DNA from: Pseudomonadales bacterium
Lineage (GTDB): Bacteria; Pseudomonadota; Gammaproteobacteria; Pseudomonadales; Azotimanducaceae
DNA length: 64,000 nt
Assembly: GCA_028285415.1 (NCBI GenBank)
Contig: JANQPF010000030.1
Span: forward strand, 1 to 64,000
Reading direction: 5' to 3'
Part shown: positions 16,331-20,973 of the stretch, piece after piece
Position numbering within the stretch: the stretch's first letter is position 1
How the letters are laid out: every line of letters starts with the position of its first letter
Translations under genes and position numbers: made by a program
The notes under the pieces: model-generated
Told to the model about the DNA's origin: nothing
The model's database searches: none
What the model saw: the letters and a program-made list of their open reading frames with translations, nothing else

Positions 16331-16744
16331 ATGGCCAATCCAGCCCCGGGCTTCGTCAAACATCCGGACTACGAGGTCAAGATCGAGCCGCTCGCTGCGC
16401 ACATGCAGGTCAAGGTGGGCGATACGGTGATCGCCGACAGCCGCCGGGCGGTCAGCGTGCTCGAAACACGGCATCGGCCCGTCTGGTACATGCCGCTCGA
16501 CGACGTGAACGCGGACCTGATATCAGCAACAGAGACCGACACGTTCTGCCCGTTCAAAGGCCACGCAAGCTACTGGTCGGTCACCGTCGACGGCGCCACC
16601 GTCGAAGATGCCATCTGGGCGTACCTCGAGCCTTACGACGAATGTGCCGACATTCAGGCGTTCGCCTCGTTCTACACCAACAAGGTGGATCTCTATATCG
16701 ACGGCGAGCTCATGAACAAAGACGGTCCCGGCTGGACCGACTGA
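16331..16744 (+). CDS. DUF427 domain protein
   Basis: 137 residues of the DUF427 family, recognised by VIADSRRAVSVLETRHRPVWY and the core TFCPFKGHASYWSV, where the conserved Cys-Pro-x-Lys-Gly is seen. The family is small, widespread, cytosolic and of uncertain enzymatic role. It is single, with a ribosome binding site (GGGAG) nine bases before the ATG, and is followed by a non-coding tandem repeat tract. Confidence 0.88.
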   Translation: MANPAPGFVKHPDYEVKIEPLAAHMQVKVGDTVIADSRRAVSVLETRHRPVWYMPLDDVNADLISATETDTFCPFKGHASYWSVTVDGATVEDAIWAYLEPYDECADIQAFASFYTNKVDLYIDGELMNKDGPGWTD

Positions 16745-18419: not shown

Positions 18420-18514
18420 GTACGCAGTCTGCATGGCGTATTGGAGCGTGACAACATGGATTGCGAACCCGTCGGTGCATTGCTAACTTCTGATGCGTAT
18501 TTAAGGAGGCACAC

Positions 18515-19447
18515 ATGGGCAGCCGCGAACCGGTCGACTACATCGCACGCACCCGCGAGCAATACGACGCGCTGGGCTACCCGGCGTACACCTGGGTGCG
18601 CAATGATGACAGCCCGCCGTTCGCTGCACTCACGAAGCCCCTGTCCGATTCTCGGCTCGGGCTCATCGCATCAGGCGGCGTCTATCGACAGGGACAAGTC
18701 GCCTTCCACTTCAAAGACGACTTCAGCTATCGCGAAATTGACACCGGCATCGACACGGAAGAGCTGCGCGCCACGCACTTCGCTTACGATCTGACCGACG
18801 CCCGCCGCGACCCGAACGTGGTATTTCCTCTGGATACGCTTCGCCATGCTGTCGACGAAGGACAGCTGGGGGAGCTCGGCCCGCGGGCGTATACGTTCAT
18901 GGGCGGTATCTATTCGGCGCGCAAGGTGCGCGACATTCTGGCGCCTGCGATTGCGGACAGGATCCAGCAGGACGAAGTGGACGTTGCCCTGCTGGTACCC
19001 GTCTGACCCGTTTGTCATCAGTCCGTTGGACTGATTGCACGCGAAATCGAGGCGCGAGGCATTCCCACGCTCAGCATGTCGAGCGCGCGTTCCATCACTC
19101 GCGCGGTCAACCCGCCGCGTGCGGTTTATCTCGACTTTCCGCTCGGACGCACGGCCGGCAAACCCCTCGATACGGACAACCAGCGGGCCGTGCTGCGCGA
19201 TACGCTGGCTGCTTTCGCAGCCATCGACAGGCCCGGCACAATTGTCGATCTCGACTACGAATGGCAGCCGGACGACGGCTGGAAAGACCGCGTCATGCGC
19301 CCTGACCCCGACAAGCCCGGCGGAGATGGCGGCCACGACGATGACCGGGTGGCGCGTTTCGACACCCCTCAATACCAGACCGAGGCGGATGCGGCTGCCG
19401 CGGATAGTGCCTGCCCGACCTGCGTCTTTCTGGAGGACACCCGATGA
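18515..19447 (+). CDS. GrdB-family (glycine/sarcosine/betaine/proline reductase B-like) selenoprotein with in-frame TGA
   Basis: One frame of 310 residues interrupted by TGA at 19004-19006 (codon 164). Upstream it ends in DVALLVPV and downstream it resumes PVCHQSVGLIAREIEARG, so read-through gives a U-P-V-C motif. Non-selenium relatives that I recall in the GrdB-like reductase family read C-P-V-C-H-Q at this place, so TGA replaces a redox cysteine. A hairpin with a G-first loop follows at the correct distance. The start has a perfect AAGGAGG five bases before ATG 18515. A second cysteine pair, CPTC, is near the C-terminus. The stop overlaps the M81 peptidase start (ATGA). Standard gene calling would split or truncate this gene. 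The reaction is unknown. Confidence 0.85.
19017..19035 (+). promoter_or_regulatory. Candidate bacterial SECIS hairpin
   Basis: ATCAGTCC (19017-19024) pairs perfectly with GGACTGAT (19028-19035) around a three-base loop GTT. The loop begins 18 bases after the TGA and its first base is G, within the known bacterial SECIS window (roughly 16-37 bases, guanine among the first loop bases). The hairpin sits inside the coding region, as in bacteria, and would recruit SelB for selenocysteine insertion. Confidence 0.75.
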
Positions 19448-20973
19448 AAGTAGGCATTGCCATGATGAGCCACGAGACCAACACGTTCTCGCCGGTCGTC
19501 ACCGATCTCGACCGTTTCTCCGGTGGCCGTGGCACGCCGCTGAGCGGTCCCGCCGCCGTCGCGGTATACCGCGACACCGCGAGCTGTCTGGGCGGCTATA
19601 TCGAGATTGCCGAAGCCAACGGCGCTGAGATTGTGATGGGCATCGCCGCCGGCGCGCCGCCGAGCGGGCGCGTGGAAGACGACGCTTACGAATACATGTG
19701 CGATGCCATCGTGACGCTCGCCGGCGAGGTAGACGCGCTCCTCCTCGACCTCCATGGCGCAATGGCCACCAAAACCTACGACGACGGCGAAGGTGAGCTC
19801 CTGCGCCGCATACGTACGGTATGCCCGGAACTGCCCATCGGGGTATCTCTAGACATGCACGCCAACGTCACCCGGCAGATGATAGACAACTGCAACGTGC
19901 TGACCGGCTACCACACTTACCCGCACATCGACATGGACGGCACCGCACGGCGCGCCGCCAGGACGTTCTTTGCCATGTTGAACGGAGACGCCAGGCCCAC
20001 CATGCACTGGGACAACGCGCCCATGCTCCCGCACGTCATGCGCCAGGGCACTGACGACTATCCGAACAGCGCGTTGCAGGACCAGGCAAAGGCCCTCGAG
20101 CAGGACGAGTGTCTGGCGGTAAGCCTCTTCACGGGTTTTCCCCACGCGGACATCCACGACGCCGGATTGTCCGTCGTCACGATCACCGACAACAACCCGG
20201 AGGCTGCTGCCGCGCACTGCAATGCCCTGCTCGACCAGGCCTGGGCAGATCGCGAGAAATTCGTGTACGAAGTCGAACCGCTAGCGCAGTCGATGGCGCG
20301 TGCCGAGGCGACCGCCCGGCAGAGCGACGGCACGCCTGTTGTTCTGCTGGACCACTACGACAACACCGCGTCAGGCGGCACCATGGATACCACCGAGGTA
20401 CTCGCCGCAATTCTCGCGGCTGGCCTCGAAGACGTTGCCGTTTTCGGCTTCTACGATCCAGAGGTTGTGCAGCAGATGATGGCAGCGGGGATCGGCGCTG
20501 AGGTCACCGTCAATCTCGGTGGCAAGCTGCCCATGCCTGCGCTCGCCGCAGACAGCACACCGCTGACGCTGACCGGCGAAGTGAAACTCCTCTCCAACGG
20601 CAAATTCAAAGCGCGCGTCGAGATGTCCCGGGGTCTGACGATCAACATGGGGCCCAGTGCGGTGCTGGCGCTACCCAACAACGTCGACGTTGCCATCATC
20701 TCCCGCCACATCGAACCGTACGACCCCGAGTGCTTTCGCTGCCTGGGCATGGAGCCGACTCAGCGCCGCTACCTGATGCTGAAAAGCCGCATCCACTACC
20801 GGGTCGGTTTCTATCCCATCACACGCCACATCATCGAATGTGCCGGGCGCGGCGTGTGCACATCGGACTACGCAGAGGTTACGTTCGAAAACGTGCGACG
20901 CCCGGTGTACCCACTCGACGGACCGCTCACCGGCAGCAATCTCAGTCGGGAAGAATTCGCCGCAGGCCGATAG
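19444..20973 (+). CDS. M81 family metallopeptidase (MlrC/microcystinase C-like)
   Basis: 509 residues. The N-terminal signature is MMSHETNTFSP, followed by LLLDLHGAM and SLDMHANVT, which carry the probable zinc ligands of the MlrC family; a C-terminal domain follows (GFYPITRHIIECAGRGV). MlrC degrades linear microcystin peptides, but most family members have unknown substrates and this one is not evidence of microcystin degradation. The ATG overlaps the selenoprotein stop by four bases, so the two proteins are translationally coupled and probably work together. Confidence 0.88.
   Translation: MKVGIAMMSHETNTFSPVVTDLDRFSGGRGTPLSGPAAVAVYRDTASCLGGYIEIAEANGAEIVMGIAAGAPPSGRVEDDAYEYMCDAIVTLAGEVDALLLDLHGAMATKTYDDGEGELLRRIRTVCPELPIGVSLDMHANVTRQMIDNCNVLTGYHTYPHIDMDGTARRAARTFFAMLNGDARPTMHWDNAPMLPHVMRQGTDDYPNSALQDQAKALEQDECLAVSLFTGFPHADIHDAGLSVVTITDNNPEAAAAHCNALLDQAWADREKFVYEVEPLAQSMARAEATARQSDGTPVVLLDHYDNTASGGTMDTTEVLAAILAAGLEDVAVFGFYDPEVVQQMMAAGIGAEVTVNLGGKLPMPALAADSTPLTLTGEVKLLSNGKFKARVEMSRGLTINMGPSAVLALPNNVDVAIISRHIEPYDPECFRCLGMEPTQRRYLMLKSRIHYRVGFYPITRHIIECAGRGVCTSDYAEVTFENVRRPVYPLDGPLTGSNLSREEFAAGR

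Follow-up and report, generated by a model that had tools for sequence, protein, structure and literature searches.

The locus described here raises the question of whether a UGA codon within an otherwise open reading frame is read as selenocysteine (Sec), and what kind of protein would result. It lies on the forward strand of contig JANQPF010000030.1 (assembly GCA_028285415.1, a Pseudomonadales bacterium of the Azotimanducaceae), in a stretch of 64,000 nucleotides that we analysed as a whole and refer to as the window. The comparative sequence evidence indicates that the internal UGA at 19004-19006 is almost certainly read as Sec and that the gene encodes a selenoprotein. An initial annotation, made from the sequence alone, had described an in-frame TGA at codon 164 with the same frame continuing on both sides, a perfect ribosome binding site and a stop coupled to the next gene. 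All three were found: the TGA is the sole internal stop of the frame 18515-19447, the motif AAGGAGG precedes the start, and the stop codon TGA (19445-19447) overlaps the downstream ATG (19444-19446) as ATGA. The features of the gene are as follows.

18515..19447, forward strand: predicted PrdB-like selenoprotein gene, 310 residues including Sec164, then stop; supported by profile matches and orthologues.
18503..18509, forward strand: Shine-Dalgarno motif AAGGAGG, 5 nt upstream of the start codon, as read in the sequence.
19004..19006, forward strand: UGA codon 164, predicted Sec of the redox motif U-P-V-C; TGA in 80/80 orthologues inspected, Cys in L130-L133.
19013..19015, forward strand: Cys167, the cysteine of the UxxC motif, with a presumed resolving role; invariant across the 50 sequences of alignment A3.
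19017..19035, forward strand: putative bacterial selenocysteine insertion sequence (SECIS) hairpin; stem 19017-19024 / 19028-19035, loop GTT 19025-19027.
19412..19423, forward strand: C300-P-T-C303, putative subfamily-specific second dithiol at the C-terminus; invariant in A3, with CxxC in 80/80 loci.

The strongest evidence comes from relatives of the gene. A search of genome contigs (genome_contigs) found 132 relatives, of which the best 80 were kept and inspected. All 80 carry the TGA within the motif U-P-V-C-H-Q; by record title they come from the Pseudomonadota (57), Acidobacteriota (13), Myxococcota (5), Chloroflexota (1) and Actinomycetota (1), with no phylum assigned for 3. The same motif was present in 30 of 30 loci inspected within the family, window gene included; the two sets of loci share contigs. 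A PrdB-like match was detected in 180 of 206 genomes of the family and, among the matches listed, each had at least one in-frame TGA, a count that may include a read-through terminal stop, as seen for L131 and L132; our statements on Sec rest on directly read motifs. In four more distant relatives, Cys occupies the Sec position, as CPVCHQ in L131-L133 and CPICHQ in L130, so that the Cys-containing form given in the initial annotation is real and the proposed alignment check at residue 164 was positive. When the sites of these four relatives were compared with synonymous recodings, three folded no better (978, 346 and 719 of 1000 recodings as good) and L133 folded well (65/1000).

The expectation that the frame would be under constraint on both sides of the UGA was also borne out. 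Differences from the window gene at codon positions 1, 2 and 3 amount to 0.26, 0.21 and 0.60 before the UGA and to 0.281, 0.265 and 0.585 after it; third-position differences dominate in both parts. No run of invariant residues in A3 is longer than 164-173. The first in-frame start after the UGA is the ATG at 19076, corresponding to residue 188, and the conservation of a segment lying upstream of it implies that ribosomes pass the UGA. The gene therefore presents what is expected of a selenoprotein, namely an in-frame UGA flanked on either side by conserved coding sequence.

With regard to the means of decoding, the source genome (5.97 Mb, 34 contigs, 99.0% complete, 3.2% contamination) contains all four components that had been proposed for a search. 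The genes selA (523.4 bits, cut-off 268) and selB (408.8 bits, cut-off 242) are clustered with tRNA-Sec (73.6 bits, anticodon TCA) on contig C4 (3571-6863), and selD (271 bits, cut-off 125) is on contig C21. Given that selA is found in 176 of the 206 family genomes, in 166 of them above the cut-off, an origin within the lineage is more likely for this gene than contamination. Across these genomes, 158 have both a PrdB-like match and selA, 22 the gene only, 18 selA only and 8 neither (Fisher p = 0.03), a co-occurrence of little weight, given the almost universal presence of selA in the family. Two observations on the machinery itself may be added. On contig C4 (L147, 2229-6872), a phage-type integrase with an arm-binding domain follows selA, selB and tRNA-Sec, as if tRNA-Sec were the integration site. 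SelD (L008, contig C21, 106114-107010) lies inside a 729-residue open frame and also gave a match, below the cut-off, to part of the oxidoreductase/SelD fusion model TIGR04369.

The proposed SECIS-like hairpin exists as described: a stem of eight perfect base pairs begins 10 nt after the TGA, and the GTT loop, with G as its first base, begins 18 nt after it. Its computed energy is -17.4 kcal/mol (z = -2.7); 5 of 200 shuffles score equally well, and 21 of 1000 synonymous recodings fold as well as the native hairpin. Taken alone, this fold is only moderately unusual; it is the comparison of sequences among relatives that makes the case decisive. Codon counts were made on the window gene and the 80 loci (81 in total), and pairing statistics on 77 distinct sequences. 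Gly172 is encoded by GGA in 76 and GGG in 5 of the 81, never by GGC or GGT, whereas at ten other conserved glycines GGA or GGG occurs in only 22-38 of 78-81 sequences and the commonest codon is GGC. The codon of Ser170 is TCC in 78 of 81, and that of the loop residue Val171 is free. The codons of Gln169 and Leu173, which pair through the stem, occur as CAG-CTG in 66 sequences, CAA-TTG in 12 and CAG-TTG, which gives a G-U pair, in 3; the pair-breaking combination CAA-CTG was found in none of the 81. Both codon switches are synonymous, and parsimony on the tree assigns 10 changes to each. On well-supported branches, five independent comparisons were available, about four of them concordant and none opposite (p = 0.125). 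Cells of the hairpin are paired in 89.7% of cases, compared with 26.6-38.5% for slid structures, and the covariation score, the percentage paired and the two-sided cell count each exceeded all 500 shuffles. Judging by these codon patterns, the hairpin constrains synonymous codon choice. A hairpin downstream of the UGA, with an early G in its loop and conserved in relatives, as expected of a bacterial SECIS, was thus found for the upper 8 bp, the outer stem being weak.

A sequencing error or nonsense mutation, in a pseudogene or a true Cys gene, might be suspected from the Cys in four relatives and from the single draft assembly, but is not credible in view of the TGA present in all 80 loci taken from other records, the downstream coding constraint, the constrained hairpin codons and the complete Sec machinery. 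Two further possibilities, that low-level read-through places a different amino acid at the UGA or that two separate proteins are made, are hardly more probable. Rare near-cognate read-through exists in bacteria; however, the invariant residues 164-173 precede the next start, the hairpin is conserved, and the residue that replaces Sec in relatives is Cys. The selenoprotein reading of the initial annotation is hence upheld by the machinery, by the orthologues with Sec, by the distant relatives with Cys and by the constraint on the hairpin.

The second question is what kind of selenoprotein this is. Both halves match a single family, as had been claimed: against the PrdB profile TIGR04483, the piece upstream of the UGA gives an E-value of 8.1e-28, the downstream piece 1.5e-13 and the read-through product 2.5e-48. 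The two pieces cover successive stretches of the profile (17-144 and 150-235), and the read-through product spans positions 17-235 of 238. Its score of 164.6 bits is below the curated equivalog cut-off of 300. The Pfam family GRDB (PF07355) matches the upstream piece and the read-through product, not the downstream piece; at 42.3 bits, the latter product exceeds the gathering cut-off of 22 and belongs to this superfamily. Four NCBIfam models of GrdB type gave 47.6-56.5 bits, below their cut-offs of 65-800. The label "GrdB-like reductase" given by the initial annotation therefore holds at the level of the Pfam family; among curated models, however, PrdB fits best, and the cut-off of none of the NCBIfam reductase models was reached. 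In comparison with GrdB, GrdF and GrdH (PF07355, TIGR01918), the window protein is alike in the shared region matched by Pfam GRDB, but it is without the N-terminal part, about 200 profile positions, and is not accompanied by a GrdE-type subunit.

The partner subunits of these reductases were searched for in the same genomes. PrdA (TIGR04480) gave no match in the source genome and exceeded its cut-off in none of the 206 family genomes. The GrdE-type family PF09338 was not found in the source genome and was found in one of the 206 (G147). Neither the PrdA nor the PF09338 search matched any of 14 control genomes, the only positive control being G147, within the family. In G147, the sole match to both TIGR04480 and PF09338 (L141, C195:56878-58110) is a sarcosine-reductase-like alpha subunit of GrdG type, perhaps acquired, which scored 345.5 bits against its model's cut-off of 780; it shows that the PF09338 search is able to detect its target in this family. 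The selenoprotein GrdA gave no match in the source genome, in a search that matched no control genome either. Since no PrdA or GrdE-type subunit was found in the source genome, the protein is unlikely to belong to the known Stickland reductases.

A genuine PrdB, the selenoprotein subunit of D-proline reductase, would share with the window protein the homology over nearly the whole profile, TIGR04483 being its best match, and the UxxC redox motif (PMC13188914). Marine UxxC homologues have, in addition, been named proline reductase PrdB (PMC1088965, PMC2398784). In contrast, the score of the window protein falls far short of the PrdB cut-off, PrdA was not found, and the C-terminus is extended by some 60 residues that include an invariant CxxC. 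With PrdA above the cut-off in none of the family genomes, the sole TIGR04480 match being the subunit in G147 and the control genomes being silent, D-proline reductase is unlikely, and we consider it very improbable that this is a genuine PrdB. The pyruvoyl group of D-proline reductase sits on PrdA, and the failure to find this subunit argues for a different chemistry. The pyruvoyl group of this reductase is named in the title of a reference in PMC1088965. We conclude that the window protein is very probably an orphan and not part of a D-proline reductase.

The C-terminal extension, whose CxxC the initial annotation does not note, offers a clue to how such an orphan might work. Its CxxC is present in all 80 inspected loci, C300 and C303 are both invariant in A3, and the tail is absent, by eye, in 13 more distant relatives and paralogues. 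In an AlphaFold model computed with Cys at position 164 (predicted local distance difference test 90.7), residue 164 lies between the strand 157-161 and the helix 165-180, and a low-confidence stretch at 267-276 separates the body from the tail. A search of PDB structures gave no confident structural relative. We propose that SelB, directed by the hairpin at 19017-19035, would deliver Sec-tRNA(Sec) to the UGA, yielding a single protein of 310 residues in which Sec164 stands where a strand meets a helix. Sec164 would be the catalytic nucleophile attacking the substrate, Cys167 would resolve it, and C300/C303, beyond the linker 267-276, would re-reduce the resulting selenenylsulfide with electrons accepted from thioredoxin or glutathione. 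The C-terminal cysteine pairs of ribonucleotide reductase and thioredoxin reductase relay electrons likewise; by this analogy, a built-in CxxC relay is a tentative proposal, with somewhat less than an even chance of being correct. Most likely, the protein reduces a small organic substrate by itself, in a thiol/selenol-dependent reaction, rather than as a subunit of D-proline or glycine reductase.

The window gene is not the only one of its kind in this genome. Five further PrdB-like genes with an in-frame TGA were found (L135, L137, L138, L139 and L140), beyond the reach of the initial annotation and making six in total, and up to seven PrdB-like matches per genome occur in relatives. Three of the six, the window gene included, read UPVCHQ, and the others read UPLDHQ, UPNCTR and UPLCTR. 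L135 carries UPLDHQ, with Asp in place of the expected resolving Cys, and L139 and L140 have in common the motif UPxCTR and a longer C-terminal part. The six are spread over several deep branches of the tree, some of them long and of unsure order. The numbers of recodings per 1000 that fold as well as the native site are 69 for L135, which outperforms most of them, 116 for L137 and 189 for L138, which do so moderately, and 488 for L139 and 582 for L140, which do not. The scanned neighbours of the five paralogues showed no obvious common theme. When the window was scanned with a crude codon score for further UGA-bridged genes, 402 candidates were obtained, and no second case is claimed; the scan lacks sensitivity because its top 14 omit the PrdB-like gene.

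Taken together, it is highly probable that the product of the gene is a selenoprotein within the PrdB branch of the GrdB/PrdB family, decoded through SelB and the hairpin and acting by the mechanism proposed above. Several points weigh against this explanation. The assignment of Sec164 is comparative in nature. In the rest of the class the gene is rare, with matches in 7 of 368 other sampled genomes (8 of 369 with its own), and the loci of those seven genomes carry Cys in L130-L133 and TGA in L128, L129, L134 and L136. Among the 206 family genomes, 22 have the gene and no selA match, including G180 (93% complete, 8 contigs) and G115; in such genomes, some of them more than 90% complete, the missing selA likely reflects draft gaps. 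As for the hairpin, the well-supported tree comparisons are too few to reach significance alone, pairs changed on both sides (83/500 shuffles) and further pair types (459/500) are not unusual, the outer stem below the 8-bp hairpin is poorly kept (47 of 77 sequences unpaired at columns 7/39), and the paralogues L139 and L140 do not have a strong hairpin by the recoding measure. The PrdA and PF09338 negatives depend on G147 as the one positive control, the 14 control genomes being silent, and the support for the CxxC relay consists of conservation.

Two neighbouring genes on the window deserve consideration as partners.

19444..20973, forward strand: M81 / MlrC-like metallopeptidase, ATGA-coupled to the PrdB-like gene; Pfam DUF1485 1.8e-91, MlrC_C 7.2e-49.
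16331..16744, forward strand: DUF427 protein; PF04248 5.2e-32.

The ATGA overlap could mean that the protein acts only together with the M81 peptidase, as a two-gene module. An M81 gene follows the PrdB-like gene in 5 of the 30 family loci (window included) and adjoins it in 3 of the 80 genome_contigs loci, two of the latter three (L047, L064) lying on contigs equal in length to those of L019 and L027. Nevertheless, adjacency in only 3 of 80 loci stands against a UxxC motif and a CxxC tail kept in all 80; an obligate module is unlikely, and the M81 peptidase can at most be a local partner. DUF427 is described as a beta-tent domain whose function is unknown (PMC4287342). It occurs in the upstream flank of 12 of the 80 loci, in five of them (L064, L075, L076, L091, L092) 3-21 nt from the matched start, and a functional link to the PrdB-like gene is possible. 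An ECH gene was counted in the flanks of 16 of the 80 loci and a TIM-barrel gene in 4. Among neighbour clusters of the window and the 80 loci, within flanks of up to 6 kb, none occurs in more than 13 of 81, and an assignment of function from gene context was rejected for want of a sufficiently common cluster. Clusters with Acidobacteriota representatives (loci such as L105, L114, L119, L120, L122) recur in 7-13 loci. One of these clusters, at position +2 in 8 loci, resembles myo-inositol oxygenase by eye.

The window gene probably belongs to a known and widespread marine group of UxxC PrdB proteins, reported from the ocean since 2005 in a literature that the initial annotation does not cite. 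These reports include 42 PrdB selenoprotein genes with UxxC from the Sargasso Sea (PMC1088965) and, in the survey of the Global Ocean Sampling (GOS) expedition, 235 PrdB genes of pfam07355 with UxxC and 110 Cys homologues (PMC2398784). A 2021 survey attributes 6.4% of GOS selenoprotein genes to proline reductase (PMC9402790), and a 2026 review lists D-proline reductase as TIGR04483 with UxxC (PMC13188914). The Sargasso and GOS proteins entered as "Proline reductase PrdB" resemble the window protein in the UxxC motif, and the GOS table gives the same Pfam family; compared by description only, they and the window gene are probably the same group. The excerpts of the two accounts used here (PMC1088965, PMC2398784) mention neither PrdA nor a C-terminal CxxC. 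A literature search, supplements excluded, found no paper on PrdB-like proteins or selenocysteine in HTCC2089.

We see about an even chance that the abundant marine "proline reductase PrdB" proteins, in this branch at any rate, form a large family of orphan selenoenzymes that need no pyruvoyl subunit, the present branch using a CxxC relay of its own in an uncharacterised reductive reaction. For one of the commonest selenoprotein families of the ocean, the name proline reductase is unsupported by the genomes studied here, and relabelling would change the reading of marine selenium use. In the source genome, six genes are liable to truncation by gene callers that stop at UGA. For biochemistry, the family would provide a clear target: a single-subunit selenoenzyme with two dithiol-type sites.
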